From NCBI GenBank assembly GCA_030272155.1, contig CP126199.1, positions 4,824,501 through 4,888,500 on the forward strand: 64,000 nucleotides of DNA, given 5' to 3'. Of the stretch, positions 32,269 to 61,610 are shown piece after piece (position 1 is the stretch's first letter; the number at the start of each line of letters is the position of its first letter). This DNA comes from Tetradesmus obliquus (lineage: Eukaryota; Chlorophyta; Chlorophyceae; Sphaeropleales; Scenedesmaceae). The notes under the pieces were generated by a model. It ran no database searches and was not told where the DNA came from. It saw nothing but the letters and a program-made list of their open reading frames with translations. The position numbers were made by a program, and so were the translations under genes.

Positions 32269-35200
32269 CTACACAGCAGCAGCAGGCTGCTCTACAGGCA
32301 CCTCTGCAGGCAGCACAGCTGCACAGAAGGCATCAATCTCCTTCCGGATATCTTCACTGGCTGCCAGTCCGCTGATGAAGCGAGGCGGGATTGCAGACTC
32401 GCCTACTGCAGCCCCCATGAGGGCCCCCAGCGCTGCTCCCCTGTGGCAGTTCTCGCCGCCCACGTTGGTGTTGGACAGCACTGCCTTCTCAAAAGAGTCT
32501 GCAAGTGCAGCACACAACACAATGATGCATTGTTAGCAATGTACATGAAGGGTTTGTGGCAGGTGAGAGAGCAGGACGTAGAAGGTACATGTTGGTGTTG
32601 GACAGCACTGCCTTCTCAAAGGAGCCTGCAGGTGCAGCAATCAACATGACGCATTGTTTGGAAACATGAAAAGAGCTTGTGGTGCGGGTGAGAAAGCTGG
32701 CGTGAAGAAAGCACATGCGGTTGCACTGGTGCAAAGCGCCACATGGGTCTGCTGCAACTGCGGCGTTCTTTGCACTAAACTCATGCAGCATCCCCACACC
32801 CAAACACTTCCATCCCGCAGCATGCCGTATGAAACCAGTGCCCAGTGGTCATCGGCAGCAGGCACATCAATTGTTGTTGACAGCAGCAACAACTATGCAC
32901 GGGAGCACGCACCTGAGTACTTCCAGGCCTGGAACAGCACAATGCGCACATGCCATGCCATGCCTACCGCAGCATTTCTCATCAGAGACACGTCATGGAC
33001 GGCTGTTGGGCAATGCAAACTGAAACTCTTTAATGCAAGCACAGGAGCACGCACCCGAGTACTTCCAGGCCTGATACAGCTCATTACATAGCAGTAAAGC
33101 AGTAGCAGCAGTCACATCAATAAATGTTGAAAAATAGGAAATGCACAGCCGCGCACCCGAGTACTTCCAGGCCAGGTACAGCACCGCGGGCCAGCTGCTC
33201 TCGATGTAGCACGCGCTGCCAAACACGCTGTGCACGATGTTGGTGTCGTCCCACAGCTTGCCAGCAAGCTCAGCAGGACTGAAGCGCAGCCGCTTGGCCT
33301 CAGCCTCCAGCAGCGGCCGCAGCGGCTCACCCTGTTAAACGACATGTTACATAACAGTTAGTGACAAGTGAGATCAGATGTGTCGTCCCACAGCTTGCCC
33401 GCCAGCTCAGCGGGGCTGAAGCGCAGCCGCTTCGCCTCCGCCTTCAGCAGCGACCGCAGCGGCTCACCCTGTTACATGACATGTTACATAACAGTCATTA
33501 AAAACATTATGTCATGCCCAAAGCTTGCCAGCCAGCTCAGCGGGGCCGAAGCGCAGCTGAAAGCCTCCAGCAGCGGCACAGTGGTTCACCCTGTCACTTG
33601 TTATAATGGATATAAATATGGTTTCACGCAGTGTGATGTCAAGGAGACTATGCGTCTGAAGTACAGCAGCACAGTGATGAGCAAACTGAACACAGCGTGA
33701 CAGACGGCACAGCAGACAGCAATATGCTACATGCAGAACACCAGAGCCTGAGGCTGCTGCATGGCAGACACACATGCACTGCGCCTGCATATATGCGATT
33801 GCAATTACAGTGCTAGCTGGCTAGTGGTGGCGGAAACCTGGATGAACACTCACCAGCACAGCACGCGTCATGACTTGCGCATACCGCTCTGCCACTGCCA
33901 CCAGCTTGTTTGAATCATGCGTGGTGCGCAGGTGCGTGACTGCCTGCGCTGCTGCCGCTGCTGCTGTCGAGTCGATGCCATTGCTGCTGCTGGCGCGCGC
34001 TGCCGCTGCCACTGCTGCCATGATGACTGGCGGCAGCATCACAAAGCCGCCGATCTGTGCTGTGTTGTGGCCCTCAGTGCCCTGCACAGCAGCAGCAGCA
34101 GCAGCGCACGTGCTGTCGACATCAGCGGCCTACAAGTCGGGCCATAAGCAGATTACTTGCAGATACGTGCTGCTGCATGCATGTTGGGCACTTTAGAGCC
34201 CCCACAGCACCAATGGCTGCATTTGATGTTCCCTGCGTCATTCAACAAACCGTCTCACTCCCAATGCAGGGCAAATGACAGTGGTGTGCAACCTTTTTCA
34301 ACATTTCTGAAATGGCTTGTTAATCATGTGCTCACCTCGCATCACAGGATACAATGCGACGGAGGCATCAGCCAACACAGCAGGCTTGCGGTCTCACCAG
34401 TGCGCAGCGCTCTGGGGGCACGCCCGCTGCCCAGTTCCTGAAGAAATTTCTGTGGAAGCTCTCCGCGCTTGGTCAGCAAGCACACACCAACAATAACACG
34501 ACAGCACAGTTATAGGAGTTGCAGGTAACATACTTTGGCAGCACAGCAGCCTCACCAGTGCGCAGCGCTCTGGGGGTACACCTGCTGCCCAGTTTTTGAA
34601 GAAGTCCCTGTGGAAGCTCTCCGCGTATGTGTCATTGTGGCTGCCAGGGGTGGCCATGAACGACACGTAGTCGTTCAGGAACAGGGTAGGATCATATCTG
34701 CAGCAAGGCGGCAGCAGCAGCATGTCAGCGCGTAGGTGTCGGTGAGGCCCTACTGCAATACTCCCACCTAAGCTAGGTGCTGCAACCCCATATTCTGTTC
34801 ATTCCAGACAACATCCACTGGTACCAAGCATCCCGTTCAGTAACATGCCTGCATAAAACCACTCGCGCCACTTACTTGCCGCCGTTTGCTGCGATGCCGC
34901 GCATCACGATGCGCGCGCAAACCGCGTTGAGTGTGTTCTCGCCTGCCACCATTCCCTGGTGGTAGTGCATGTTGGGCACGCCCCAGAACTCGTGCTTGCC
35001 GTGGTTGATGACGTCACCTGACGCAGCAGCAGCAGCAGCAGCAGCAGCAGCGGGTGTGGCAACAGGATCAGCAGCAGCAGCAGCGGGTGTGGCAACAGCA
35101 GCAGCAGCAGCAGTTGCAGCAACGGGTGTGGCAACAGGATCAGGAGCAGCAGCATGCAGCTCGCAGGCTCGCTGCTACTTGAGACACACCGCTGTGGCTG

Positions 35201-36292
35201 CTGTTGCTGCTTCTGCCAGGTGCGCTGTGCATGCACAGCACTGCCCAGCAGCTACCTGCAGAGCACCTGCCTTGCTACGCTTCTGGCTGCGCTTGTCCTG
35301 CCTGCTGCCGTGCTCACCAACGACCTTGCCAGACTGCTGCTGCTGCTGCTGCTGACTCTGTTGTTGCCACAATGTCACTGCCGCTTATTCAACCCGCGTC
35401 TGTTCAATTTCAGGCAGCAACACCTATCACGCCTCCCCCTGTGCCGCTGCATCGCTCACCGATGATTTTGCTGGACTGCTGCTGGCGCTGCCAAACTGCT
35501 GCTGCCGCTGTGTTTTCTATATGTGCACTAGAACAGGCAGCGACAACATGCCGCTGCGTCACTCACCGATGATCTTGCCGGACAGCTGCGGCTGCTAGCG
35601 CTGCCAGACTGCTGCTGCTGCTGCCACCGCTTTATAGTCCATATGTGCACTAGAACAGGCAGCGAGAACGTGCCGCTGCGTCGCTCACCGATGATCTTGC
35701 CGGACTGCCCTCCCCTGCCGTGGCCGCCGGTGTTGCTGAGGCTCATGATGCTGCTGGGGTGGCGCTTCTTGGGGGCCTGAGGTGCAACAGCAGCAGCAAA
35801 TTATATCAGCGGTTATGTATGCACGAGATAGTGTGTTTGGGCAACACTTCCGTTAGCCAAAACAGGCAGGCAGCAGGACATGCGCAATGCCGGTAAGTCT
35901 GTGGTTGCCCGCTGATGTTTGCTTGTACCATCTCCAGACAAGTTCCTGACAACTCCTGACGAAATTAGCGGCTGTGCCCACCCACCTAATAGTATGTGAT
36001 GTCCAAAAAGTGCGGCAAATACCACCACTACCATAAGCCCTCAACCCTAACACTGAGATAAACCCTAAACCCTAAACCCACCTGGTAGTCTGTGATCTCC
36101 CCAAAGTCGCGCTTGAGGTCAGTCACGGAGTAGTACCAGTGCACTGCAGGCAGATGAATGGGGTGGGCCGGCACACACGTATATGAGGTTGCCAATATTC
36201 GATTGACATCTGGTACGTTTGGCTGCTTCCTGAAGCACATCTTGAAGCATGCAAGCGTCAACGAATAAGGCGGCAACTGTGTCGCCGGCCCA

Positions 36293-36323
<31 letters not shown>

Positions 36324-36396
36324 ACAGTGATGTTGCGGTTGCTGAGCAGTGTGGCTGTAGTGTGTCCCCAGCATGGTGTGTAGCTGCCTGGTCTAT

Positions 36397-36437
<41 letters not shown>

Positions 36438-36978
36438 ATACCTGGCATGGAAAGAGCATCAGCAATAAAGATGCCTGCAGTGCATATTGTCACATGAAGA
36501 GACAGCCAGGGGCATGCGCACAGCAGCACACGCAAAGTCAGCGCTTACAGCAACTTGCATGTGACCAGACCAGACCACATGAATGTCCCCTCCTGCACTG
36601 CAACACTTGATTTGAAGGCGGCACTGTGACTTGGTGATATGCTTGCGCTCGTGTGCACATGTGCGTGCCACATGCTGCTGCACATGAATCAGGCTCCCAC
36701 AAGCAGGGCAGCACCCCAACATCACAGCCATATAACCTGTGCACAATATGTTATATATGTTATATGTTTGATGTGTGATTTAGCTCACCCCACAGAGCTC
36801 CGCGCATGCGGTCCAGCAGTGCTGCCCTGTCTGTGGCAGCAGGTGCCTCTGCTGCTGCTGCGCACTGCTGCATGGTCCTGCTGCAGCAAGCCACGGGGCC
36901 GGGTATCAGCAGTGCTGTCGAGAGTGCTAGAAACTTGCTGATATTCGCTGCATATTTGATGCTGCTCCAATGAGGCAT
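32269..36978 (-). CDS. ADP-ribosylglycohydrolase-family protein, 9 exons
   Basis: Exons 36789-36978, 36442-36474, 36082-36143, 35689-35776, 34876-35017, 34556-34697, 33854-34081, 33157-33331 and 32269-32498; phases join to 429 residues. Family motifs in order: MRGALWGIFIADALSMPVHW (N-terminal GALxGxxxxDAxxxP type), QGMVAGENTLNA, GSHNDTYAESFHRDFF, GTEGHNTAQIGGFVMLPPVI and the C-terminal NTNVGGENCHRGAALGALMG. In typical ADP-ribosylhydrolases the last motif carries Asp ligands for two metal ions (GGDxDT); here it is GGEN-C-HRG, as in the crystallin J1-like branch, so substrate and activity cannot be assumed. The start is the first in-frame ATG (MPHWSSIKYAANISKF); an internal ATG before the conserved domain is an alternative. 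Introns contain partial copies of exons 4, 6, 8 and 9. Confidence 0.87.
32500..32700. repeat. Tandem copy of the exon 9 acceptor edge
   Basis: GTTGGTGTTGGACAGCACTG-CCTTCTCAAA, including the acceptor CTGCAG, occurs at the real exon 9 start (about 32465-32505) and again at about 32590-32632, period about 133 bp. Following intron sequence (GCATTGTT … GGTGAGA) is duplicated as well. The extra copy would add residues like SFEKAVLSNTN and then runs out of frame. Confidence 0.85.
32895..33180. repeat. Three copies of the exon 8 donor edge
   Basis: The block GAGTACTTCCAGGCC with a CGCACC donor (GTGCGT or GTGCGC on the minus strand) occurs at about 32913, 33056 and 33158. The rightmost is the real exon 8 end (…AWKYSG); the two others are intronic copies with a possible donor but only about 20 bp of exon sequence. 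AGCACAGGAGCACGCACC-type flanks are shared by the two extra copies. Confidence 0.85.
33235..33600. repeat. Three copies of the exon 8 acceptor edge
   Basis: GCCAGCTCAGCGGGGC, GAAGCGCAGC and GGCTCACCCTGTTA-like blocks occur at 33250-33340 (real exon 8), 33390-33480 and 33525-33600. Each copy carries the acceptor (TAACAG, TAACAG and GTGACAG on the minus strand). The second keeps about 90% identity; the third has internal deletions. Confidence 0.88.
34390..34640. repeat. Duplicated 3' half of exon 6 with its donor
   Basis: CTCACCAGTGCGCAGCGCTC, GGGGG, CCCAGTT, TGAAGAA and GTGGAAGCTCTCCGCG recur at 34395-34468 and 34551-34627 (the latter in the real exon 6), period about 157 bp. Both keep a GTGAG donor. 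The upstream copy lacks the 5' part of the exon. Confidence 0.88.
35300..35700. repeat. Four tandem copies of the exon 4 donor edge
   Basis: CTCACCGATGATCTTGCCGG-type blocks (donor plus the last ~20 bp of exon 4) occur at about 35312, 35455, 35564 and 35684. The last is the real exon end. Two flanking segments also share ATATGTGCACTAGAACAGGC at 35519 and 35641. Period about 110-140 bp; copies diverge leftward. Confidence 0.88.
36040..36081. repeat. Short interstitial telomere-like repeat at an exon 3 donor
   Basis: Plus strand CCCTCAACCCTAACACTG and then AAACCCTAAACCCTAAACCC; in gene orientation the intron begins GTGGGTTTAGGGTTTAGGGT, so the splice donor sits in a (TTTAGGG)-type telomere motif. 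TTTAGGG is the plant-type repeat also found in many chlorophycean algae outside the Chlamydomonas group. Confidence 0.8.
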
Positions 36979-37230
36979 GTTGCAGCTCGGCTGATACACT
37001 TTTGAGATATGTGGTGGCCGTATGCTCAGCTGCTGGCACCACCCGCTTGCCTGCGCTGCTGCACCGCCTTAGCAGCTGAGTGGGGACTAGTTGCGAAAAT
37101 AGGCTTGTTGGCGCGTGCGAGCTTGCTAGTACTGCCACGGAGAGAGGTAGCGTTGGAGCGTGACAAACAATGCATTGTGCTGGCTCGCAGCACGTCTTGA
37201 AGCACCGACATTAAGCAATAAATACCAACA

Positions 37231-37983: not shown

Positions 37984-38158
37984 GTGACACTATACTGCAG
38001 CACTACGTGTTGGAACACAGCATATAAACTTAAAACACAAAATCAATCATAGCTTGTGACACTCAATCTTCGCATCAATCGTCGGCCGCGATCGGCATGT
38101 CTGCTGCTGCCTGCCCATCTGACCAGCGCTAGTCGGACACAGCGCAAGTGCAGCCACG

Positions 38159-38433: not shown

Positions 38434-38474
<41 letters not shown>

Positions 38475-41400
38475 CTAGCAGGCGCAGCAGTAACAGCAGC
38501 CGAGATCCAAGCCTCTACTTGTTGCTGTATTTCTGCTGCACTTTGCCCCTGCACACAAACTCTCACCCCGATAGAGGGGTCACACGGTGTTCATGCGGCG
38601 TACGCCACCACAGACACCTGGTAAAATAGGAAGCTGCCTGCACACCAACTCTCACCCCTCATCCCTGTGAATGACACTACTACTGTATATGTGTGCAGAG
38701 ATGATGGCGGAGGCGATCCCGCAGGATGGGCCAGGCCTCCTAGAGGTGCCCCGTCAGCCGGCGCGGCAGAAGCGGCTGACGTATGCAGATGTGCAAGGCT
38801 ACGAGGAGCTGCTGAGCAGCCTGGTGATGCTGCCTGGCAGCCATGCCCAGGCCATGCCCAAGGCTCCCATGCTGGATGCGGGGCAGTGGGTGGACGCGCA
38901 CTTCAAGCAGGTGTGTGGTTGTGTGTAATGAATAGGGATGTGCGCAACCGTATAAAGCGTAGAATTATACTGCGTAGAAAGCGTATCATATGCCGTAGGG
39001 GGCCTTATATGCCTGGCGTAGGCGTACATAAAACCTGAAGTTGGCCTTCCTGGGTCCAGCTGTCAGGGTTTTGTGTTCTAACATGTTCTATTGTATGTTA
39101 TTAATAATATGGTGTGTTACAGCCACGGAACCGCCTGCTGTAAAGGCGTTTATACGCTAGTATACGTAAGCAGGTTTGTGAGCTCGCATGCAGTGGCACC
39201 TGCTGAGCACTGTAAACAGCCAGTGTGCGGCCCCCACCTGCCTACAGCTGTCACCAAAGGCAGGACAACATAGTGCTGCAGCAGCTACCACCTTTCCACT
39301 GCATATTGCTGAAACCTGCTGGTTGAATTGGGACGTTTTGCCACTCCACAAGCACCCATACTGCTGTTGTGGTCAACGCTGCTGCTGTAAGGCGGCAGGT
39401 TTAACAACCAGATCAACACAAGCATGCACGGCAGCTTCCCCTGCACATGCTTGAAGGTGCACAGATTTGCTTTTTTCATGCTAGACTGTCCATCTTTACA
39501 TGCACACACCATCTGCACTCCACACACAGCCGTACTGCTGCTGTGGCCAACACTACTGCTGTGAGGCAGCAGGTTTAAACAACCAAATCAACACAACCCA
39601 ACAGCACGGCACGGAACAGCGCGAAGTCCATGCAACCAATCAAATTATTGTCTATTAACAACAAGGTTTTAAGTTTGCTTGGCGTGCGGAAACTGCAAGC
39701 TCTTCGTCTCTGCCAGCTTTTGTCTTGCTGCAGAGCTGTGCACAGCTGCAGAGCTGTGCACAGTGCACGTGCACTGGCACATTGGCAATGGCAGACAAAA
39801 GGAAAGCAGAGGAGTCCCCTACACACAGCCACGATATGGCATCAAGTCAAGGCCCCGGGACACCCCTGAAAACATGAGGTCGCCTTTTGGTGCTGCGCTG
39901 GAGCCTGAGTCAGGCTCACCCTCATGCTCCCTCACAAACAGCAAGCAGCAACAGCCATCATAGTACGAGTCGTACTACTGGCAGAACGTCACCACAGGAT
40001 CCATGTACACCCCTAGCACTGACTGTGGTTCTGAGCTGCCAGATGCATCCCCTCACCTGAGACAATGCCAGGCATCATGTCTGGGCACATAGCACGGCGC
40101 AAGCTGGCTGCAACTGGCGTGCTTTTCCCTGGCAGTGATGATGCCCTGCCGCTGCCCTGCAAGGATGAGCGATGCAGCAGCTGAGGAATGTGCTCAAAGC
40201 GTGGGCGCTGGTTGCAGAGCAGTGGGGACTTCACCAATCTGTGGTGCAGGAGGGCTGTGGCTTTCAAGCGGCGCAGCTGCTCTCACGCCTGGCGCACTTG
40301 GCTTCTGCCGCGCTAAGCGTTCCATGTGATTCATCTTTCTGTACTGCAGGAGGGTTACGGTTTCGAGCTGCGCAGCCCCTTTCACGCCCGGCGCGCTTGG
40401 CTTCCTGTCTCGCTGAGCTTCCCACGTGCTTTCTTTTCATTTGCTGTAGGAGGGCTATGGCTTTGAGCCGCGCAGCCCTTTCTACGCGTGGCGCGCGTGG
40501 GCTGCTGCTGCACTGCCGCTGGAGCAGGCGCAAACACTAGTGGCCATGGAGGCTGTCATGGCTGATGACAGCTGCCGCGCGGCGATGCTGAAGCAGGCAC
40601 AACATGTGAGCTTAGTGGCCGGTTCAAGTGCATTCTGTTCTCTGTGATCTTTATTGAATCTTGTGGCCGTGGAGGCTGTCATGGCTGATGACAGCTGCCG
40701 CGCGGCGCTGCTGAAGCAGGCGCAGCATGTGAGCGCATGCCGCAGCTGGTGATGCTGTGTGAATTTGGCAAGTCCTGTATATGTCGAGCATGGCGTTTGT
40801 TGCTCAGGGGCTGCAATGGTTGTGCTTGAGAGGCAGCACAATGATAAGTGATGTTGAACAGGACCTGCGGCGTGTGATGCTATTTTCGTATGTTTGCTAT
40901 GTTTGTTTGAAAACGCTGCGCCTCTGGCGGCTGTTGTCTCTGCTTTTGATTTGCTGCCGGTGCTGCAGGAGTTGGCACGGCTGTGGGACTGGCAGCACCG
41001 CAGGGTGGCTCTGGGCCTGCCGCCTGACCTTCCACACACCAGCAGCAGCAGCAGCGCAATGCCAGATGCAGCAGCAGCCGCTGCAGCAGCAGCGGAGGCG
41101 GCTGCAGCACGTGCAGCAGCAGCAGCAGAGGCGGAGGCAGCAGCAGCAGCAGCAGCAGCGGCAGCAGCAGAGTTGCAGAAGGCAGACTTGAGCGGCAGCA
41201 GCAGCAGCAGTAGCGGCAGTGATGATGAGCTCGCAACAGCGTTGCCGGCCGAGGATCCGGCTGAGAAAAGTGCGTCAACAATGTAGTTGCATGACATGCT
41301 GCATACTACTGTGCCGTGCTCCTTGTGGGTCTTGTATTTGTTAGTCACCCTGCAGTCAATGCACTTGCCAAGGGTTGGCTGAGGTGCAGCATGTTGTGTG

Positions 41401-41860: not shown

Positions 41861-41908
<48 letters not shown>

Positions 41909-44900
41909 ATGCTTTCACAGAATTGTTATGCGCTGCTGACCCATGTTTGTTTTGTTCTGCTGCCCGCAGCTGCTGAGGCGCGCATGCTGCAGCGGCTGGC
42001 TGACAGCGGCACCGCAGCCACCACTGCCCAGGTGATCAGGGCCAAGCTGGAGCGGGGCCAGCAGACAGCAGAGCGGGGCCGCTTCAGGCGCTTCAGGGAT
42101 GGTGCGTGCCACGGAATGGCTGCGTTTGGTTTCGCTTCAAGTTGTTTGGGTGCTGTCTTTGCGCTTTGACACTAGTCCCAATGAGTCAATCAGGGAGTTC
42201 GGACGGTGCATGCCACATAATGGCTGCTGCCTGTGCTGTGAGGTTGTTAGAGGTTGGGTGCATGCTGTGTTGGCGTTTGGACACTGGCACGATAGGACCA
42301 GTCTGGGCACCAGCCGTGCATACGAGTGTTGCAGTTCCTGCATGGTGCACTAGCGGATGCCTGACCCTGGTCATGCAAATGCTCAGCATCGAGTACTATT
42401 GGCCTACTCGTATGCCAGCATACACATACCAGCTTCCTTTAGCCACCACTTGCTCAGGTAATTTGCTGCGGCTGCTGCCCTCAGCGCTGTCTTTTTCAAA
42501 GCTCATGTAACGTGTCATGTTACACTGTTATGTAATGTGTTGCAGGCTACACGCTGCGCACCTACTCGCCGGTGGCTCATGAGGATGACCTGTTCCTACC
42601 CACACGCCACATGGGCAGCAAAGAGGTGCGCTGGCTAGCTGCTGAGGACTTAATCATGGAGAATTCGTGTACTTCCTGCGCTGCTGCGCTTGTCTTCCTC
42701 CTTCAACACCTTTCCAGAAGACATTTCCGCAGCTGCACTTGGGAGTCTGCTGACACGGGTAAATTGTCATGAAACACAGACCATGTTGAACGGTGCTTGC
42801 TACATGCAGGTTGCTGACAAGCTCGCCGATGCCAGCCTCACCACTCCAGTGGACCCCTCAAAGGTGCTGCGCCAGGCCGTGGCTATTGCAGAAGCAGCAC
42901 GGATCAGCGCAGCAGCCAACCCTGCAGCGGCGCTGGCAGCCGCCGGCAGCAGCAGCAGCAGCAGCGGCGCTGTGGATGGTGCTGAGTGGACTAGCATGCC
43001 GCTGCTGGATCGGGGCGTGCTGCGGCAGGAGCAGCTGCGGCAGCAGCAGGAGCGGCTGGCGGCAAAGCCCAAGAGGCAGCTGTGAGTGTTTGTGCTGCGT
43101 GAGTGCTGCTGCATGCGCAGCTGTGTGCCTGGCTCATGTGTTGAGTGATGTCGTGGACTGCGAAGAGACAGCGAGCTTGTGGAATCTGTTGTGTATGACG
43201 TTTGAAACCTGTGGCAGTGCCTGGCAGTTCAACTGTCTTTATGCATGCTTTGTGCCCTCCCAATGACTTCTGTGATGAGTAGGTAGCTGCAGCAAAGGCT
43301 ACAATGGGTGGCAGTGGATGTCTGCCGCCTCTGCTGCACCTCACACTTACGCTGCGGTCTCTGCTGCAGGCCCTGGCAGCTAATGGCGCTGGACGATTAC
43401 TCCTTTGACCTGCAGCAGCGGCCCCCTACGCCTTCCTTTGACCTCCTCACAGCATACCTGGAGGTCAAATATGCAGATGTGCTGCTGCGCAAAGACGCAG
43501 TCAAAACCCTGCAGCGGCAGATGGCTGTAGCAGCCCTCACCGCCGGCGGCGCTGCTACAGCCTCAGAGGCTCTAGAAACCCCGCCTGCGTCACTGACAAC
43601 TGCCAAAACCCTGAGCCCCGCTGAGAGGGAGGGTCTAACTGCCGCATTGGATGAGATGCTTGGCAGTGGGCAGTACAAGCAGTACAAGGAGGCTGTACTG
43701 CAGCTGTACTGCGATGGGTTGGTGAGCTGGGGGGAGCTGCAGCAGTGCTGGGCGGCTGCTCAGGCGGGCGAGGAGATGGCTGCTGCTGAGAAGGCGCCAG
43801 TGCCTTTCGCAGGTGAGGGGGTGTGCGAGGATGGAGGGGAGAAATGGCTGGGGTAGAAGGGTACTGCTTGAAGTTGTGAAATGGGGAATTCGCATCACGT
43901 GGTGTCACTAGTATTAGCATATATCATGTCTGGTACGCTGGCTGTTTCCACGCAGAGAAATGTTGTTGAAGAGAACTGTGCTTGCGATGCTGCAATCCTG
44001 CAGCACCAGTCTGTGCATGCCGCAATCTTCAGCTGAGTCAGAGCAGGATCGCGGCAGTCAAAACCGCCAAACCACGTCGCATGCCTGGGTATCTGCCAGC
44101 AATGCAGTTGTTATGACTTCAATGTGCTGCCGCTGCTGTACCTGCTCCTGCAGATGACCGCCAGCAGCTGTTTGCTCTACTCAGCGGTCAGCAGCAGCTG
44201 GGCAGCCTCACTAGCCTCACCAGCAGCAGTGATGGCGCTGCAGCGCCCAAGCTGTCAGCAGCAGACGAGGCAGCAGCCAGGCAGGCGTGGGAAGCAGCAG
44301 GCAAGAAGCTCCAGGGCAGCTGGGCAGCAGCAGCAACCGCACACGGCAGCAGCAGCAGCAGCAGCGGTGATGGCGGCAAGCTGTCACAGGATATTTGGTC
44401 TGAGCCTGTTGGTTTTGAGGAGGCTCGGCAGACGTGGCAGCAGCTGCTGCAGCTTGCCGGCATGCCGCAGGGGCCAAGCCTAGAGCAGGTGCTGCTGGCT
44501 GACAGCAGCAGCACCAGCAGTGATGTGGCACAGAAGGAGCAGCTGCAGCAGCAGCTTCAGCAGCTGCAGCAGGCGCTGCAGGCGGCGACGGGGCTGGATG
44601 CTGGCGCTGCAGCTGCTGCTGGCATTGATGACTTTGAGCAGCTGCAGCAGCTGTTTGCTGCGCCACCTAGCCTGGAGCAGGCGCTGAAGCAGCACTGGGA
44701 GCAGGTGCGGCGTTCGAAACCTGCTTGGTGCAAAGATGTGGTGTTTTGTAATGGCTTTACATGCCTGGCAGCATGCTTGGCACGATCGTTGTCAAGGTGG
44801 TGTTTTCATGATTGCTCACCATGCAGGTTGATACCTCATGCCACTGAAGCCTCATCCTGCTACTGCTGCTGCACTGCAGGTGTCCCGGCAGCATCTGGGG

Positions 44901-45913
44901 GGCCAGCTGCGGCAGAATGCACCTACATGGCAGCAGCTCTGGCAGCTGCTGCAGGCCCTCACAGCCAAGCAGCAGCAGCAGCAGGCTGCCGGCGGTGATG
45001 CTGACGCTGATGCTGCCATGGATGCTACTGCGCTGTTTGAGCAGTACCTGAGGGAGACTGAGGCGGTGCCCCTCACCCCTCCTCCTTACCCAGGTGAGCC
45101 TGCCGCGCAGCAGATGCTGCTGCTGCTGCTGCTGCCGCTGCAGTGGCAGGATCAGCTCTGCCTCCGCACCTGCCCATGCATTGCGTTGCAATTTGCTGAC
45201 CTGCTTGTGTTACAAGCGCGCATCAAGGTGTTGCTGTGTCCAGCTGGCTTGATTGCCCATTGCAGTAGCAACTTCAGTGAACATCTACAGCCGCTAATGC
45301 ACGCCACAAACCTCAAACATGTACATCTAGACCTGCTCCGGAGGATCCTCTGCCTGTGGGACACTGCCTGCAGGTGCGCGGCGGCTGCTGCGCTGGGAGC
45401 AGCGGCTGGTGCTGGGCCCCACCTCCGGCCAGACAGTGACGGCTGAGGAGACCAAGGTCAAGCTGAGCGTGTCTGCGGCAGAGCTGCAGCAGGAAACGCG
45501 CCTGAGCGACGCCGGCCTGCAGCACATGCTGGCGGTAGCAGGAAAGAGGTGAGACCGCGGCACAGTGATTGGTTGCAGGCAGCAGGTCTCGACATTCATT
45601 GTTGTGATTGTTTGACGGCTGCTGTTTCCAATTTGTTTGGACCATCCTGGATGCTGCAATCGCCAGGCTTCTAGATAATCCACACCTGCTGCTTTGGTGC
45701 TGCCTATCCTGCAGGTACGACCCAGCCACAGGCATGCTGAGCCTGGTCTGCACCCGCTTCCCCACGCGAGAGGAGAACAGGCGCTGGTGCCTGGAGGTGC
45801 TGCACAGGCTGCTGCAGGAGGGCCAGGCACGCCACCCCAGCAGGCACTTCCTGCTGGGGCCGGCTGGCGGCGCAGCAGCACAGCAGGCAGCAGCGACCGT
45901 AACGCTGCCTTGA
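38159..45913 (+). CDS. Mitochondrial small-subunit ribosomal protein mS35
   Basis: Exons with joining phases: 38159-38411, 38699-38910, (unresolved 38911-40449), 40450-40605, 40969-41269, 41517-41711, 41970-42101, 42546-42625, 42810-43081, 43370-43812, 44154-44704, 44880-45093, 45374-45548 and 45715-45913. The start MLRHGITLGSSQLLARLPQL is a typical mitochondrial presequence. The last two exons hold the conserved MRP-S28/mS35 domain: KVKLSVSAAELQQETRLSDA, HMLAVAGKRYDPATGMLSL, FPTREENRRWCLEVLHRLLQ. The middle has an mS35-like stretch (RTYSPVAHEDDLFLPTRHMG) and long Ala/Ser/Gln-rich insertions (40969-41269, 44154-44704). Over 1,000 residues, far longer than plant or animal mS35, so algal-specific extensions are likely. 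One or more exons in the gap are unresolved, and the exon at 40450 has tandem edge copies. Confidence 0.8.
40250..40549. repeat. Three tandem 100-bp units carrying a splice acceptor (mS35)
   Basis: The acceptor followed by GAGGG(C/T)T(G/A)(T/C)GG starts at exactly 40250, 40350 and 40450. Each unit has a TGCAG or TGTAG acceptor, about 60 bp matching the start of the exon (GAGGGCTATGGCTTTGAG…) and about 40 bp of intron-like sequence. The third continues into the full exon. Confidence 0.92.
40535..40740. repeat. Duplicated donor edge of the same mS35 exon
   Basis: GAGGCTGTCATGGCTGATGA, CAGCTGCCGCGCGGCG and CTGAAGCAGGC(A/G)CA(A/G)CATGTGAGC occur at about 40550-40612 and 40672-40735, period 123 bp. 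Both end in a GTGAGC donor at the same codon phase, so either donor could be used. Confidence 0.92.
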
Positions 45914-51956: not shown

Positions 51957-54900
51957 TCACCATTCGCTGTCATAGTTGCTGCCCTTTGGCTTCTGGCCTG
52001 TTGGGTGGTTGAGCAGTGAGTCTGGGTGCGGCTCTGGCTTCGCCTCTGCAGCAGCAGCAGCAAAGGCCAGTTGCAGGAAACGTAGGCAACTAGATGCATG
52101 CATGCAGCATGTACTATGCTCATGCCGTAGCGCTGCAGAACCTAGGCAGAGCAATGCCAGCATATACGCACATGCAGACGGCATACTAACAAGGATGCAG
52201 TCCAGGTGCAGGTGCAGGATCATGGAGAGTGCTCTGCTTGTGCAAACGCATGCCAGTGCGCTGTCTGGTGTCCCAGCCAACGCTGCAACAATCAGCATGG
52301 CATCAAAGGCCAAGTTAAGCATGCGTATTGCAGCGAAGAAAGCAAGCGCACTGCTGCTTGCCAGGCCACTACGCACACTCACCCTCCTTCATTTCATGGT
52401 CCTCCCACACACTGACCAGGCTGTGCTTCTCCTGCTGCTTGGATGCTGCCTCGGCTGCAGTTGCAGGCAGCCACACAGCCCGCACAGCAGGACAGTAGCA
52501 CAGCAGTCCATCAAACATGAGCAGTTGGTGCATAGCTACACACACTGGAAAGCTGTGGTGACAGCCCACTCACAAGACGGCATGCTCGGTGCTTCGTGTG
52601 CTGCTGCTTCTGCTTCTCGCTCATTTGGCATGAGTCATACCATATGCGTTGCCTTGGGATCCGCTACTGTACTGGGTTAATGCCAACCCTGCGCAGCTGC
52701 TGTGGCCCCAAGTAGTTTATAAAACACTGTTCAAAAAGCAGCAAAATCTGAAAGGCACAGCAAGCTGCGCGGTGGCAGTAGCTTGACAAAGCTGTCCTCA
52801 ACGCACCCTGCTCGAGCTCCTTGTCTTCCCAGACGCTGATGAGGCCCTGCTTGTGCTCCTCCTTGTTTGCATCTGCGTATACATTGGAATTAATCAAGCT
52901 TTTAGCTCCACGGTGCAACCTGGCATGCATGTGACTGCAGCTGTTGCATGCAGCACGCAGCAGCAGCAGCAGCATGAAGCAGTGTACCCCATGCAGTCAC
53001 CAGCAGCCATATTGAAGCGTGTGCAAGGCAACGGCATGCTATAGCACCTTTTTGCATTTATGCAAGCCACGAACACGTACCAGCTGGTCCTGCAGGACTG
53101 GTGGCTCGCACAGCAACACGCCTGCTTACTGCGCTAGGCCTGAGCAGCACAGCTGCACGAGGGGCTGCGGTAGCAGGAGTTGAGATACGTATGTTGCAGA
53201 TCATTTCAAACAAAAGCTTTTATTGAAGTGATGTGCTGCTGGCTGTATCAGATCACGGTGGTTGCTGGTGTCGGAAGCGGCAAAGATGCGATCGGAACTC
53301 TTATACACTGTGCTCTTGCAAGTATCTTCGCGTCGCATCAGTTCAGGAAAAGAGCATGCTTGGACACCACTGATGTTCTGCTCCCGCCTTCTGCTACTGT
53401 CACGTCTCGTCAACTCGTAAACCCCTTCCAGCTTCATTAGGGACCATTTGTGCTGCTCTCATTCTTGTTCATTGTAAAAAAACTAGGCAGCTGTGATCGG
53501 CGTGACGCAGTCACCCCACACCTGCGTCCCTGGCCTGCAGGCAGATGCAGGCATCTCTGCTGTTGTCAGGCCACAATATATAATTGGTACAACGTGCAAG
53601 CAGGTCAATGATTTCAAGTATAATGCAGCATAATGAGTACTCGCATGGCTAGAAGTGGTCCCCCAGGCCACCATGGCTGCTGAACCTCAGATTGCAAGCA
53701 TGTGCAGCTCCCGCTTCTGCTCCTATGTGTCCTTTTGTATTACCTGCATTCTTAACAACACAACAAATAAAGCAAATCTTGAAGGGAACTCTGTGTGTTC
53801 AAGTTTTGAAAATAAATGGAACTGACACAACAACGTGGATGCCAGGGTTGGATATGACTTTGGCTTGAACAAACACAGCCATGCTGTACAAGGCAGCTTC
53901 CCTGCCACAATTGTGGCTTGTGGCTTGCAAGCAATGGAGCCGATGATGATCATCATTGAAAATTGATGATGGTCCACACATGACGCCTCAGTCACATGCA
54001 TGACAAAATCAGTCAGCGTGCAGATGAGCTGCCATCATCCTGACACGTAACTAAACACCAGCCTGGCAGGTGCAACAACAATGGCTGCTACTAGTAGCAG
54101 CGATGTCACTGTGTCCTACATGCACATAAAACTGCCTTGCAGCCAACGACTTGGCTGCTCTGGAGGTCAGGCCTGACCTGCCGTGACAGAACCTTGCTTG
54201 GATGCAGGCGCCGCGCCTGTGGACCACAGTCACAGATTGGCCCAGGCACTGGCAGTAGCTCGTGCTGCACTTGAAGTGCATCACGGCCAGAGCAATTCAC
54301 AGGCTGTTTTTCACTTCAGGTGCCGCACGAGTCACCGCCACTGCACACACACAAAAGGCACACGACCCTGACGTACAACACAATGCTGTGTCTGCGTTGG
54401 TTTAAAATGCTGGTGAGTCACATGCGTTGATCAAACCCTCTCGTGTACCCCAAACCCCACAACCAAGCTTTTGGCGCAAGGATCGCTGCAGCGCCAGTGC
54501 TTGCTTTCAAGGACAGCCACTGTCAAGCATTCAATGAACATCCATGCACATCAAACATTTGTTGCATGTGATATAGGCTGTACCAATCCAGAAGGAGAAT
54601 ACGTGTACCAATGTTCATTTGCCATCACAACCGCGTCACATGTAAATGTACAGCCTTTCTCGTCATCTGCTCAGGCAGACAACACAACACAGCACAACAT
54701 GTTGTAAAATGAAAACTCTCCCTTTACAACACAACACAACACAACCTGTTGGCGCATCACACACAGCTGGTGATGATGTTCAGGGCCACCAGCGCAGCAG
54801 TTGTGGCAACATGATACTCCCTCTTCTGCTCTGTCGCCTGCTGCCAGTCCATGCTGCTGACGGTAAGTATCACCGGATATCCCTTCTGCTCTGCCTTATG

Positions 54901-57285
54901 CTGACTGGCCCACCACACGCGCAGGCAGAACAGCAGCGCAGCGCATGCCGTGGCCAGGCGCCAGCAGCTGTAGGGTTTTACAGCCACTGAGCCCTGCAGC
55001 ATGCCAAAACCCAGGCACGCTGCATAGCCAGCCTCGAGGAAGGCCAGGCTCAAGTTGATGTGCCTGCAGGCAGGGCACAGGGCAGGCAAACTTTGTGAAC
55101 ATGTTTTTTCTTGCGGGCTTCTTCTTAGCGATTCTTTAGCCCGAGTGTCCAAAGCCCGACTGTTTGATTTTGTGCGGTGCATTGGTCTATGAAGAGCGCC
55201 GGCCGAGCAGCGGCTGATAGATGCTGGCGCCGGCCACTGGTTGCAGACGATCCTAGGCAATACTAATACACCAGGCACACGTGAGTGAAAAGTGCATCGT
55301 TGTTGGGCAGCAGCGGTTCATCATGAACTGAGGAGCATCAGCACACAAAAAGCGCTGTAGCCAGTCTCAAGGAAAGCGAGGCTCAGGTTGATGTGCCTGC
55401 AGGCAGGTTTAGGTTGCAGGGCAGGTGCTGTTGACGGGGAGTTTGCAGAGTTCTTAGCATCTAAAGCTGTGGGGGTGCAGCATCGCCAGGCAGAGCCAGG
55501 AGCGCCATGCAGCAGCTGACAGCCACGCCAGATGCTGGCACCAGCCACTGGCTAACAACCCCCAAGTGCTTGCAGCCCAACTGTAGATATGCATAACCTG
55601 AGCTGTACTCAATGGAGCAAGGCTGTGCGCAGCTCATTATAGAGAGCATCACCTGCCTAGGATCCTAAACGGGGCTAATATAGCAGGCGCATGTGCATGA
55701 AAAGAACATGATTGTTGTGCGTTGGTTGCAAGCTGTTCTGCTGTTGCACTGCTCGCACCTGTTCTCCTCCAGGGCCAAGTGGTCCCTGTCTGCTGCCGTC
55801 TTGAGGGCATCAGCAGCAAAGGCACCAGCCAGGAAGCCGGCTGACCACAGCTGCTTCAGCAGGCTGCTCAGCGGGGTGGCCTGCAGGCGGCGGCAGCAGC
55901 AGCAGCAGCAGCAGCAACAATGACTTCAAACCCGCAGCCATAGCTGACCCTCAGCAATGCGAAGACAATTGGATGTGCTGCCAACAATACGCCTCCCTGG
56001 ACTAATTGTGGGCAACACATGCATTGATACAACTCTGATACAATAACAGCATTTCATGTACAGCACAACACAGCACATGACCGCTGCAGAAGCCAGCATC
56101 GTTCTGCGACTGGCAAGGCACTCAATTCCCCGACACACAGCAGCTCTGGCATGCACTCACCGGCCCCACATATACCTGCATAAAACACGTTTACACTCAG
56201 TGCAGTGACTGCAGTTGTCACTAACATTTGTTACACTCACCTCTCCAACAAACAGCAGCTCTGGCATGTATGCATTCAGCATCGTAGCCACATGCTGCAG
56301 CATGATGAACCAGTAGCCCCAAGCCACAGCACAGCTAGGCAGCATGAAATCCATCAGCTGCACTGCTGTTGTGGCCAGGGGAGGCGTGGAGGGGCCCTTG
56401 GGTTTAGGCAGCGGGGCGGCCGCTAAAACCTTGCTGAAGGCCGTTTTGACGAGCTTCTTGCGGTAGTATTTGGTGATGCCGCGGGCTGCAATGGGGCCGG
56501 CCTTGCTGACTGCGCGCCCAAGCCAGCTGCACACAGAGATCCACAGCAGGCGCGTTTGCTGCTTTGTAAATGATGGCTCGGTAAGTATGGCCCTATACTA
56601 TGGTTTAGGGCCATAGTCATCCGAAACTATAGTTTTGAATGATTTGAGATGGCTGGGGCATCATCATCTAGGGGGAACAGCATGTGCATGTAAGCCACTC
56701 ATACACACAGGGCAACGCATGTGTGCTGAGAGTGCAGCGGCAGCACAAAACAGCTGACAACAGCCTTTATTTTGACCTTTGACGTTGACAGACATGTCAA
56801 GTTGCACCTCTCACCCGAGGCCCCTCTTGCTGAGCAGTACAGCAGCACCTGCACATATGCAGCGGCAACGGAAGCAGCTGCATTGTGAGGTGCTGCGTTG
56901 TGAGGTCTGCAACCTGCACACAAACTGCTGGTGTCGTGCAGTACACCACATCACACGGCTGAGCGGCTGCCAGCTCTTTCCCAATCTACACATGGCACAT
57001 TCCCCATGCATGCGTTGATCAATAATCAATCACCATTACAGCCACTGATACAGCGCTGGATGAAATGATTTGAAACTGCACCCGGTACAACAGTGTCACC
57101 TGCTGCAGCAGGTGCGGGCTAGCCAGACTGACATCAAGCTAAGCATGTGACAGAAGTCCGCTGAGCAAAACATGTGACATGCAAAACATCTGACATGCAC
57201 AAAACATGCTGCTGCGGGCCTCACCGGCAGTCACTGGCGTGCAGCCGCGTGGCGCTGCTGGCAGCACACCAGCCAGCTGCAGAGG

Positions 57286-57358
<73 letters not shown>

Positions 57359-58049
57359 CAAGGACAACAGATGGCCTCAGCAGCTGCAGAGCAGAGGGCG
57401 CAGCAAAGTCTGTACATGTGACATATACCATGACCACGCATGCATGTTAACTGTCCACAGATGCACCGTACACATTGAAGCACCTGTGCGTGACTCTCCG
57501 CCACTTCCGTCACTTCCCTCTGCGGTAAAACTGTCTAAACATGCTTTACAGGACAGCAGTTTGCTGGTCGCATTCCCGCGCTGACGTTGCTGTCCATATG
57601 ATGCTACCGCAGCAGCGCCACGCACCGAGGGCATGGGCGGCATCAGCGCATGCAGTTTGCTGATGCTGTCATGACCATGCTGCTGCAAAGCTTGATTAGC
57701 ACCATCAGAATGCAGCTGCAGCAGCACCACCCACCGAGGGCATGGGCGGCATCAGCGCATGCAGTTTTGCTGATGCTGTCATGACCATGCAGCTGCAAAG
57801 CTAAATTGGTACCATCAGAATGCAGCTGCAGCAGCAGGGGCACCCACCGAGGGCATGGGCGGCATCAGCACTTGCAGTTTTGCTGATACTGCCATGACCA
57901 TGCTGCTGCAAAGCTAAATTGGTACCATCAGAATGCAGCTGCAGCAGCAGGGGCACCCACCGAGGGCATGGGCGGCATCAGCGCATGCAGCAGCAGCGTG
58001 GCCGCCACTGGCAGCAGCAGCTTCGCTATGATGCCCGGGTGGTACACCT

Positions 58050-58105
<56 letters not shown>

Positions 58106-58464
58106 GGTGAGCTCCAATGTCAGGGCCACATGTACACAAGCAGCCGCAGCTGATCATTTTGAAGCTGGGCACCCCGCTATTTTTGGGTGTCAACCTATGC
58201 TGCTGCCCTATGCGCGCAACAAGTACCACGCACAAACAGGCGCTGCAGCTGAGCAGCTATGAGGCCTGCCTGGAATGCAAATGAAGACTGCGGCTTGCTG
58301 GATTGCAACAACAGCTGCGGCTTGCCTGGAATGAAAAATCAACAACAAACGAAGACTGTGGCTTGCCTGGAATGCCAGCAGGTGTGTGGCGAGCTCTGCA
58401 GCCAGCACTGCAGGCAGCAGCGCCAGCGGCGTGTAGCAGCAGCTGATGCCCCACTGGCTGATGA

Positions 58465-58531
<67 letters not shown>

Positions 58532-59184
58532 ATGCAGCGCATGCAGGTTACATAAAGAGAGGACTGCACTGCGGCTATGTGCTGATGATGCGGTGTTGGT
58601 GACGTGCTAGGTGTCAGGGATGCACGAACCCTCTGCTGGCTGAACAGCTGCCACCTTTGAGGTCGAACAGCCTGGATGCGCCGTGTTCATGCCACGCTGT
58701 TTGAAGCGGCGTGCTCTGCCAGTCTGCTGCAGCACACACAAACAGGAGTCGTGCAGAGATGTACTGGCTACGGATGCAGCTAGGCAAGCACATTTGCAGC
58801 GCACAGGCACGTGGCTGGTTGAACACATCAGCACGCCACTCACTGCCTTGAGGGCCAGGTAGGCCAGGCTCGCTGGCACGATGCAGCTCAGCATCAGCCG
58901 CTGGCTCAGCAGTTGTGCCAAACAACCAACAAGCCTGTGGTTCATTGCATGCAATGCAACATGCTTTGCCGATTTCCTGCAGGCAGCAAACGTGACCAGT
59001 GCAGACTTCCGTATGCAGCAAACCGCACAGTACACGCTCTAGCCAGGCAATAATTTCAAGAAACTGTAACGCAAACAACGCACCGCCTTGAGGGCCAGGT
59101 AGGCCAGGCTAGCTGGCACGATGCAGCCCAGCATCAGCCGCTGGCTGCTGGTGGCGTGCAGCCTGCCGCGGCGGCAGGCCCGCT

Positions 59185-59217
<33 letters not shown>

Positions 59218-59999
59218 GTTGCAGCAGCAGCAGGGCGGCGGCAGCAGCAGCAGTGGCGGGGCGCAGTACAAGCATCACAGAGGTGGCAGCATGAGAAGCA
59301 GTAGCCATGTGAGCACCCCTGTGACGTGCTTCGTTGCACAGCATGAGCTCAGTCACTCAGGCACTTGCATGCATGCATATGCTGTACTGCACTTGCATGC
59401 ATGCATATGCTATACTGCAATCATGTGGCTGCCCAGCCACCCCACCTGCAGCGCCTGCGCCAGCAGGCCCCTGTACAGCAATGCTACGCCCATCAGCCGC
59501 AGAACATCACATGCTACTGCACAACCCATTTTCCAGTTTTCATGACACGACCAGCCGCCGTCATATCAATGCGCAGCTGGGCACCGCCGTAGCACTGCAC
59601 ACCACAGCACACGAAACATAGCACCAGCATGTTAGTCGAATCCTGCTCAGCCGCCGCACCTGCAGCACCTGTGCCAGCAGCTCGATGTGACGGAGCGGCC
59701 TGCCCAACACGTACAGATCAACAACCACAAAACCACAGATTTGCTGTGCCGCACCTGCAGCGCCTGTGCCAGCAGGCCCCTGTAAAGCAATGCTACGCCC
59801 ATCAGCCGCGCAGCAGTGGCCTGCAGGGTGCTGGGCTGGGCGCTGAAAGACAGCGCCAGGCACTGGCTGGGGGCCACAGCCAGCACGGCCCTGCAGCAGC
59901 AGCAGCAGCAGCAGCAGTAGCAGGACGTTCGGTCAGCATGCGGCTCAGCATCAGCGCAGCCTCCCCCGCCTCGTCATTAAAATGGTCCGCAGCAGCCTG

Positions 60000-60047
<48 letters not shown>

Positions 60048-60603
60048 GGCGGCTGTTGCGCTATGCTGCCGCAGGGACGCATGAGCAAGAAGCTGCAGAG
60101 GGCGGCGTGACATGGCCATGCACGCTGCTGCTTCAGCAGCAAATGCGAAAACCAAGCTTCAACAGCGACCTGCATAAGCTGCAGCTGCTAGCAGCCTTGG
60201 TCTTTCGCTCAGTATCAGGCAGAAGCATGGCCTGCGTACAGGACGACTGTGTCGAAGATCTGTTCACAAAACTCACCCTAAGCCAAACAAGGCGAACGAC
60301 ACCAAGCTGTACCGCCGCGCCTCTGCCGACAAATCTTTGCCTTCATGTATGCTCGACGCCGGCCGCTTGTCCTGACTGCTGCGCTGCAGGGGGGCACCTG
60401 CACCCGGGTCAGCGTCCAGCTCTGCTGCCGCTGCTGCTGCCGGTTCTTCTACTGCTTGTGCTTCTGCTTCTGCTGCTTCTGCTGCTGCCGGTGCTGCAGC
60501 TGGTACTTCCAGTGTTGTTGCTGCTGGCTGTGAGTCCGCTGCTGCCGCTGCTGCTGCCGGTGCTGCTGCTGGTGCTGCCAGTGTTATTGCTGCTGGTTGT
60601 GAG

Positions 60604-60634
<31 letters not shown>

Positions 60635-61428
60635 CCGGTGCTTCCAGTGTTGTTGCTGCCGGTTGTGAGTCCGCTGTTGCCGCTGCTGCAGCTGGTACTT
60701 CCAGTGTCATTGCTGCTGGCTGTGACTCCGCTGCCCCTGCTGCTGCCGCTGCTGCAGCCGGCACTTCCAGTGTTGTTGCTGCTGGCTGTGAGTCTGCTGC
60801 TGCTGCAGCTGCTTCAAGTGCTGCTGCAACCGCTGCTGCTGCCTCAGGAGTTGCTGTTGGTACTGGCGATGCTGGTGGCGACACTGGCGCAGCTGGTTGC
60901 GTGCTGCTGTCGCTGCTGCTGCTGCTGACGCTGCTGCTGTTCTGCAAGGATGGTGACGCTGCTGTTGCACCCAGTGCAGCTGTTGCTGCTGATGCTGCAG
61001 CAGCAGTCTTTCTCGCTGCTGCGGCAGCGGCAGCTGCCGCCTGTCTTGCAGCAGCAGCTGCTTCAGCAAACGCTGCTGCTCCTGCTGCTGCTTGTTCAGG
61101 GTCTGAGTAGGGTAATAGTTCAGTACCAGCTCCACTCAAAGCAGCAGCAGCAGCAGCAGCATTGGGAGCAGCAGTGCTACTGGCATATTGCGCAGTCAAT
61201 TTTTCTGTCTGTGGTTGGCTGGTGATGATGCCGTCTTGGTCAATACCAGCTGCAGCCACTGCTGCTGCCCAAACCACAGCAAACACATCGTCAACATCTG
61301 CTGCTGGTGATCCTGTGTCTGCAGCGCTTGCAGGAGCTTCTTGCTGTGCAACCATGCTTGATTGCCGTGATTGGCTGGGCTGCTCAAGGCCAACAAACCC
61401 CTGTATGCTTGCATCATTATCACCTCTG

Positions 61429-61462
<34 letters not shown>

Positions 61463-61610
61463 CAGTGTTGTCTAGGTTGGCATCTCCTTGGCTGCTTGTC
61501 CGGGCTACAAGCAGCCTCCTGCTTGGCATGACATGTCTCAGTCCTGCACAGCAATGCCTGCTGTTGCTGCCCCAGCCCTGCCTGTGTCTTTGAGGGTGGC
61601 CTGCAAGCAT
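51957..61610 (-). CDS. Large multi-exon membrane protein gene, family not recognised
   Basis: Exon-like segments on the minus strand: 60277-61610 (444 residues, Ala/Ser-rich, with five DSQPAATTLEVPAA-type repeats, ending SLVSFALFGLG before a GTGAGT donor); about 59801-59892 (LAVAPSQCLALSFSAQPSTL, LLYRGLLAQALQ); about 59093-59150 (LGCIVPASLAYLALKA); about 57962-58042 (GIIAKLLLPVAATLLLHALM); about 56240-56525 (KYYRKKLVKTAFSKVLAAAP, SCAVAWGYWFIMLQHVATML); about 55747-55885 (LLKQLWSAGFLAGAFAADAL); about 54770-55065 (HINLSLAFLEAGYAACLGFG, CAALLFCLRVWWASQ); 52806-52866 (QGLISVWEDKELEQ); and a last exon ending at 51957 (EAKPEPHPDSLLNHPTGQ … SNYDSEW). The segments predict several transmembrane helices and a charged cytosolic tail. 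Not all junctions could be phased, and it could be two genes. Many exon edges are duplicated. Confidence 0.5.
52375..52870. repeat. Duplicated penultimate exon of the membrane protein gene
   Basis: Exon-sized stretches encode KQQEKHSLVSVWEDHEMKE (about 52380-52440) and NKEEHKQGLISVWEDKELEQ (about 52806-52866), both ending in a GGTGAG/GGTGCG donor. Amino-acid similarity exceeds nucleotide similarity, so both may be used as real exons. Confidence 0.75.
53625..53735. repeat. Interspersed repeat, copy 2 (copy 1 at 27105-27230)
   Basis: Shares AGAAGTGGTCCCCC, GGCCACC, TGGCTGCTG, ACCTCAGATT, GTGCAGCTCC and GCTTCTGCTCCTA with copy 1 in the same order. It sits in a presumed long intron of the membrane protein gene. 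Confidence 0.8.
55010..55420. repeat. Duplicated acceptor edge (HINLSLAFLE exon)
   Basis: AGGCTCA(A/G)GTTGATGTGCCTGC and the flanking AGGAA(G/A)GC block occur at about 55033-55075 and 55367-55410, period about 335 bp, each with the acceptor CTGCAG (minus strand). A nearby block AGATGCTGGC(G/A)CC(G/A)GCCACTGG also recurs (55218 and 55530). Confidence 0.85.
57286..57357. repeat. CAG run, about 24 units
   Basis: A pure CAG array in a presumed intron of the membrane protein gene. Similar arrays lie at 58049-58102, 58469-58529 and 60003-60044 in the same gene. Confidence 0.95.
57600..57990. repeat. Four tandem copies of an exon end with its donor, period about 112 bp
   Basis: CCGAGGGCATGGGCGGCATC-AGC repeats at about 57626, 57738, 57848 and 57960. 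On the minus strand each is an exon end (…ALMPPMPS) followed by a GTGCGTGG, GTGGGTGG or GTGGGTGC donor. The units also share CCATCAGAATGCAGCTGCAG and CATGACCATGC. Only the rightmost copy continues into the full TM-helix exon (GIIAKLLLPVAATLLLHALM). Confidence 0.93.
58840..59155. repeat. Duplicated TM exon with its donor, period 240 bp
   Basis: CCTTGAGGGCCAGGTAGGCC, CTGGCACGATGCAGC and CAGCATCAGCCGCTGGCT occur at 58848-58910 and 59088-59150. They encode QRLMLSCIVPASLAYLALKA and QRLMLGCIVPASLAYLALKA and are followed by GTGAGT and GTGCGT donors. Both are intact at the protein level. Confidence 0.9.
59430..59815. repeat. Duplicated exon end encoding RLMGVALLYRGLLAQALQ
   Basis: CACCTGCAGCGCCTG(C/T)GCCAG plus GGCCCCTGTA(C/A)AGCAATGCTA-CGCCCATCAGCCG occur at about 59448-59502 and 59751-59805. 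A third, shorter block CACCTGCAGCACCTGTGCCA lies at about 59658. Each keeps the GTG donor after the ALQ codons. Confidence 0.9.

Follow-up and report, generated by a model that had tools for sequence, protein, structure and literature searches.

Recurrent copies of exon edges in adjoining introns of Tetradesmus obliquus, with a preferred spacing of about 120 base pairs

Among the closest described systems is the tandem genomic duplication model proposed by Rogers in 1989, a route of intron gain described in PMC4974935. In the potato RdRp gene, the same paper reports a duplicated intron–exon segment that holds the branch site, the polypyrimidine tract and the 3' splice site, and a second duplication of 83 base pairs (bp) inside an intron. 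A comparable arrangement was found in a 64,000-nucleotide stretch of the green alga Tetradesmus obliquus (contig C9, positions 4824501-4888500; hereafter, the window), where short segments spanning exon boundaries recur in the introns of three unrelated genes, those of an ADP-ribosylglycohydrolase (hydrolase), an mS35-like protein and a large membrane protein. As in the Rogers model, the duplications are short, intragenic, tandem and direct, they carry splice signals, and the reading frame is kept by splicing. They depart from the model in several respects: what is duplicated is an existing junction, the copy falls in that junction's own intron, no resulting new intron was found, unit lengths have a preferred value, and many genes take part. 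Whereas the potato case is a single gene (PMC4974935), here 24 of the 45 predicted genes whose edges were tested have copied edges.

Other repeat systems were also compared. Introner elements place near-identical intron sequence at many unrelated loci, whereas three flanks and one exon, searched here in the whole genome with common words skipped, matched only their own locus. Tandem mutually exclusive exons are complete copies with both splice sites and are under coding constraint; in contrast, the copied part was a whole exon in none of 54 near pairs of exon and copy (12 pairs were also read), and the copies bear no mark of coding constraint, as detailed below. Higher-order satellite and minisatellite arrays are alike in their unit of ~120 bp, unequal exchange and higher-order repeats, whereas each array seen here is tied to a single exon edge, with a working splice site as its anchor. 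Zhuo et al., in 2007, reportedly dealt with tandem arrays that supply introns, to judge from their title. Word-based literature searches gave no title or abstract start describing such a pattern among the matches listed.

Of the 622 predicted exon edges tested in the sampled sequence, 78 are matched on the same strand within the intron next to them, compared with 2 in the antisense control and 2 in other introns. For about one predicted edge in eight, the neighbouring intron thus holds a copy, recent or decaying, in which the splice site is usually included. The sample spans 344 kb (~0.33% of a genome assembly of 104.66 Mb in 17 contigs) and consists of the window and one 40-kb block (2.00-2.04 Mb) from each of the seven contigs C1-C5, C9 and C12, the block positions having been fixed before any of these blocks was examined. 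The CAG/CTG-rich sequence and the genes present suggest a scenedesmid-type green alga. The whole study uses one assembly, DNA sequence alone and home-made gene models. These came from a simple unsupervised gene finder, whose seed was an NDC80 model of ten exons, read by hand, together with parts of mS35, and which predicted 47 genes and 397 exons; the NDC80 prediction equals the hand reading apart from its start, but is no independent test because NDC80 was part of the seed. The strict edge test compared 40 exonic nucleotides (nt) with the adjoining intron on the same strand at a score of at least 32, excluding introns below 60 or above 1500 bp, exons below 45 bp and low-complexity edges.

All eight stretches are affected, with 9 of 93 edges copied in the window and 6 to 14 edges in each other block. 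Donors (41/307) and acceptors (37/315) both take part, 70 of 339 introns are involved, and introns at copied edges are longer (median 422 versus 268 bp). An edge may have one to five copies, 35 of the 78 having two to five. Copied edges cluster by gene, the clustering statistic lying above all 2000 permutations: a gene in the C5 block has 7 of 21 edges copied, whereas NDC80 has 0 of 18. Among long, strongly coding exons, 12 of 129 edges are copied, versus 66 of 493 others. The preliminary description, made from the window, had considered this density unusual for one window; the comparison with the other blocks (9/93 versus 69/529, Fisher p=0.50) gives that view no support. Judged by the antisense and other-intron controls, the copies over the 344 kb exceed chance.

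The step between copies is a regular quantity. Successive spacings fall within 93-146 bp in 104 of 129 cases (median 123), a range found in all eight stretches. For edges with a score of at least 36, the best copy lies 98-146 bp from the real junction in 48 of 72; among the other 24, it lies at 200-265 bp in 13 and at 330-395 bp in 3. Within 85-150 bp, the spacing has a mean of 120 and a standard deviation (SD) of 13 and is nearly independent of the copied exon length (r=0.16), as in tandem duplication with a preferred unit. Spacings modulo three (22/20/28) have no multiple-of-three bias. The regular size, and the alternating flank types in an array of the C1 block, are as in satellite-like arrays with unequal exchange, and in an array of five ~112-bp units in the C4 block, four include an intron part and look like fresh tandem duplicates. 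The preferred unit size, which goes beyond the preliminary description, is a concrete mechanistic handle. CTG/CAG repeats were considered as a cause and rejected, trinucleotide dimers not being enriched at the exon-internal breakpoint (12/93 versus 84/465 in the control). Separately, a predicted gene in the C12 block has an array of ~122-bp units, about nine in number, at positions 29766-30878, and several predicted exon edges fall within it.

The placement of the repeats is also distinctive. After collapsing, 106 repeat families were compared with random placement of the same geometries, leaving out periods above 700 bp and, as copies of a reverse transcriptase, those pairs whose start lies at 4.5-12 kb of the window. 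Families in which an exon piece is copied into an intron number 62 versus 27.9 expected, in agreement with the earlier claim that repeats gather at exon edges. The other classes compare as follows: exon plus intron in both copies (14 versus 17.3), intron-only (10 versus 17.1), intergenic (12 versus 31.9) and exon-only (8 versus 11.8). When 40-nt segments are compared by position, those at the very end of the exon are copied in 12.9% of cases and those spanning the junction in 11.3%; the rate falls to 4.5% at the start of the intron and to 0.5% for a centre 100 nt inside the exon. A size of 95-146 bp characterizes 52 of the 62 exon-into-intron families versus 2 of the 10 intron-only ones (p=1e-4), with intergenic families between (6/12, p=0.02).

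The copies change as non-coding DNA, a pattern also new with respect to the preliminary description. Mismatches between exon and copy favour third codon positions (101/141/245 over the three positions, 93 pairs), and a ratio of non-synonymous to synonymous differences (pN/pS) of 0.27 in a filtered set, or 0.37, suggested coding constraint on the copies. Between two intronic copies, however, mismatches have no third-position excess (34/58/51, 30 pairs), and a pN/pS of 0.81 ruled such constraint out. In overlapping triples, changes in one copy only are distributed 55/78/69, compared with 8/16/28 for those in the exon only. Since copy–copy mismatches are spread over all codon positions, the third-position excess stems mainly from the working exon, and the intronic copies are not protein-constrained. 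On the other hand, the gene finder takes some copies as extra exons, giving repeated peptides, and a minority of copies could be spliced in.

A step in homology at the splice site, likewise absent from the preliminary description, is the third element. Ungapped comparisons of copies whose exon identity reaches 0.85 or more (24 donors, 24 acceptors) give values of 0.89-0.95 over the 20 exonic nt next to the junction, followed by a drop at the splice site. Donor flanks retain 0.38-0.45 at 5-19 nt (control 0.24-0.27); acceptor flanks, in a profile that pools complete and unlike-flank pairs, retain 0.65 at 6-10 nt (control 0.36) and reach background by ~35 nt. Pairs of intronic copies, chosen by their exon part, have a mean identity of 0.81 where the sequence derives from the exon, compared with 0.60 where it derives from the intron (46 pairs; control 0.52). 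Over 72 edges, the identity of the exon part ranges from 0.66 to 1.0, in line with the wide range of divergence described earlier. A forward neutral simulation with matched detection steps (ages uniform, a unit of 118 with an SD of 13, and 0.13 indels for each substitution) gives a mean exon identity of 0.897, compared with 0.895 observed. Flank homology, in contrast, is undetectable in 19 of 54 near pairs versus 7.9% simulated; where exon identity is 0.9 or higher, the figures are 9 of 30 and 1.6%. With equal rates, the ascertainment-matched simulation misses this lost-flank fraction.

The favoured explanation, given a probability of only about 0.4, is a recurrent tandem duplication of ~120 bp across splice junctions, in which exchange with the working exon would renew the exon part of each copy and the intron flanks would diverge. 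Because units including an intron part exist, as in the C4 array, the process probably begins with duplication across the junction. Repeated duplication of a unit straddling the junction would build arrays of truncated, non-coding edge copies. The edge continuous with the exon body would stay in use and the extra copy would land inside the intron, which grows; the gene could keep working for this reason. Turnover of the arrays may then occur through unequal exchange or gene conversion in the part that derives from the exon. This part would be kept alike by selection on the working exon, and exchange would carry it to the copies, while the flanks, free in their letters, would drift apart. Exchange would also swap which flank serves the working exon, and both flanks would look like functional intron ends because of this swapping.

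Several points weigh against this explanation. Exchange or conversion is deduced from discordant divergence and was not directly observed; it leaves the ~120-bp unit unexplained and does not account for the intron-only duplicates, which mostly lack the 95-146 bp size. Faster mutation in the intron flanks accounts for part of the homology step; a simulation without ascertainment matches the lost-flank fraction once the flank rate is doubled. Over all near pairs, GT or AG is intact in 46 of 54 versus 0.76 simulated, which is not significant (p=0.11). Among the best-scored long exons, there are just 8 near pairs, 4 of them with a lost flank, under unsupervised models.

Ordinary neutral tandem duplication could strike anywhere, with edge copies being seen mainly since selection slows the divergence of the real exon. 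The matching mean exon identity, the non-coding changes in the copies, the non-significant overall count of splice dinucleotides and the clearly homologous flanks of 23 of the 54 near pairs (percentile above 0.95) agree with it. Nevertheless, it is rather unlikely: it predicts far fewer lost flanks than observed, especially at high exon identity, and the size mode is rare among intron-only families. Moreover, 27 of the 34 near pairs with an unlike flank (z<2) retain their GT or AG, where the simulation gives a fraction of 0.54 (p=0.003).

The splice signals of the copies are largely kept, with GT or AG intact in 81 of 93. One possibility is that the copies are functional decoy splice sites under selection to regulate splicing, for example through unproductive splicing. 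The pyrimidine tract, AG exclusion and donor consensus persist despite differing letters. Acceptor copies with an unlike flank (z<0.5, n=18) have 0.39 AG per 29 nt and 0.62 pyrimidine upstream, compared with 2.09 AG and 0.51 pyrimidine in position-matched controls and 0.78 AG in simulated unlike-flank copies; the position-matched control was preferred because a control of CAG-preceded intron sites (2.31 AG per 29 nt) is possibly inflated by CAG repeats. A decoy function is nonetheless distinctly unlikely, given the spread of copy changes over all codon positions and the unbiased spacing modulo three. Introns without detected exon copies are not enriched in strong splice-like sites around 120 bp, so decoys seem not to outlive exon homology; long-lived functional decoys were rejected for want of such a peak.

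It is likewise distinctly unlikely that copying or conversion is bounded by the splice junction at a preferred distance of ~120 bases, as a peculiarity of this lineage. If this were true, an RNA-processing landmark would shape DNA rearrangement, for example through RNA- or complementary DNA (cDNA)-templated conversion of exon-derived copies, and intron ends would be continually replaced while exons stay unchanged.

In a related scheme, a splice-aware or template-switching event would copy only the exon edge and its splice site, so that the working edge gains a new flank and the old one stays with the copy. In its favour are the homology step at the junction and the whole-genome search (common words skipped) in which three flanks from two loci matched only their own locus. 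The scheme is improbable, however, as acceptor flanks keep a residual homology that fades with distance, units including an intron part exist at the same spacing, and the spacing hardly depends on the length of the exon part. No source for new flanks was found either: 50 flank queries against the 344 kb gave mostly own-array or low-complexity matches, and predicted exon 3 of the mS35-like gene, searched in the whole genome with common words skipped, matched only its own place and its own donor-side copy. The idea of a paralogue or dispersed repeat as source was set aside, none having been found in these searches for this exon or the three flanks.

An assembly artefact, with two haplotypes or collapsed copies joined, would be conceivable in evidence from one assembly, but is highly improbable with 17 contigs for 104.7 Mb, the same 93-146 bp spacing in all eight stretches and a codon pattern between copies that is even and unlike that of alleles. 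Ongoing intron gain by the Rogers mechanism, through duplication of an AGGT-containing exon segment, has tandem duplicates bearing splice sites in its favour, as in the potato RdRp and Drosophila cases (PMC4974935 and PMC2891723), but is scarcely credible because the copies lie inside predicted existing introns and comprise a whole exon in none of the 54 near pairs; no evidence of new introns was found, although no systematic search for them was made.

If the pattern holds genome-wide, this alga would be a natural laboratory for intron lengthening and for splicing amid near-identical decoy sites. It would also bear on whether gene structure guides duplication or gene conversion.

Self-comparison of the window by BLASTN gave 35 near-tandem direct pairs within 3 kb, including repeats in the three genes named above. 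Tandem duplication across exon edges, splice sites included, is supported in all three by BLASTN and the strict test (Table 1). The total of at least eleven copied edges given, without positions for the single edges, by the preliminary description was recovered: five in the hydrolase, two, on both sides of one exon, in the mS35-like gene, as described, and four in the membrane gene, where at least five had been claimed. The array at 57601-57990 may be this fifth edge. Nine of the eleven pass the strict test, and two (mS35 40449 and membrane 59083) appear in the BLASTN table only. The small predicted hydrolase exon at 32913-32963 is probably one of the copies of donor edge 33156.

Table 1. Copied exon edges and their copies in the window (positions of the window; distances are from the real junction).
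Feature	Positions	Strand	Basis
Hydrolase exon, acceptor edge 32498 copied	32302..32498	-	Gene model, Pfam, strict test
Copy of acceptor edge 32498; junction 32625, 127 bp off	32588..32717	-	BLASTN, strict test
Hydrolase exon copied at acceptor 33331 and donor 33156	33157..33331	-	Gene model, strict test
Two copies of acceptor edge 33331; junctions 33468, 33590	33380..33600	-	BLASTN, strict test
Copies of donor edge 33156; junctions 33054, ~32912	32855..33083	-	BLASTN, gene model, strict test
Hydrolase exon, donor edge 34555 copied	34556..34697	-	Gene model, strict test
Copy of donor edge 34555; junction 34397, 158 bp	34393..34467	-	BLASTN, strict test
Hydrolase exon, donor edge 35688 copied	35689..35776	-	Gene model, strict test
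Two copies of donor edge 35688; junctions 35566, 35459	35441..35586	-	BLASTN, strict test
Predicted exon 3 of the mS35-like gene, both edges copied (acceptor 40449, donor 40605)	40450..40605	+	Gene model, BLASTN, strict test (donor)
Two copies of mS35 acceptor edge, starting 40250 and 40350; period 100, 100/200 bp upstream	40230..40449	+	BLASTN table
Copy of mS35 donor edge, 93% identical; junction 40728, 123 bp off; flank without detectable likeness to the real one	40660..40734	+	BLASTN
Membrane-gene exon, acceptor edge 55063 copied; copy junction 55396, 333 bp	54790..55063	-	BLASTN, gene model, strict test
Weak copy of membrane donor edge 56240; 115 bp, 75% identical, GT lost	56125..56240	-	Strict test
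Membrane-gene array, ~3.4 copies of a 109-113 bp unit; no exon predicted inside	57601..57990	-	BLASTN, gene model
Membrane donor edge 59083 and copy ~240 bp off, 94% identical	58838..59146	-	BLASTN table
Membrane donor edge 59754; copies at 59659 and 59445	59429..59809	-	BLASTN, strict test

Pfam backs the names of the hydrolase (ADP_ribosyl_GH, 4.7e-32), of the mS35-like protein (MRP-S28, PF10213, 5e-11, a mitochondrial ribosomal family), of the phosphatase (His_Phos_2, 9.2e-9, a histidine phosphatase) and of NDC80 (Ndc80_HEC, 4.8e-39); the part of the membrane gene that was submitted has no Pfam match. The phosphatase, like NDC80, had been described as free of copies, and none was found at its 15 tested edges. 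Seven proteins with copied edges from other blocks, taken from 12 printed predictions and mostly submitted in part, were also compared: five exceed the Pfam curated cut-off (E1 dehydrogenase, actin-like, IMS polymerase, AP2 and S49 peptidase), one (SET) lies just under it and one has no match. The gene model merges three neighbouring minus-strand genes at 23995-36873, and the predicted mS35 start at 44955 is probably late, with a likely acceptor near 44880.

Some minor observations concern the rest of the window. The plant-type telomere motif AAACCCT occurs at 36060-36079 in two full copies and a partial third, immediately beyond the donor site where the predicted hydrolase exon 36082-36143 ends. 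A CTG-rich repeat of ~66-129 bp at 60422-60841 lies inside a predicted exon and encodes alanine-rich repeats. Long near-perfect TGTC and TCA microsatellites occupy 453-675 and 4570-4860. At 4860-11210, three head-to-tail copies, ~98-99% identical, of a segment with long open frames are found, together with a 114-bp piece repeated several times. Further long open frames lie on the minus strand at 11621-16897 and resemble, in their motifs, proteins of non-long-terminal-repeat (non-LTR) retrotransposons. Finally, a gene starts at 62901-64000, which we take to resemble a ZIP metal transporter.

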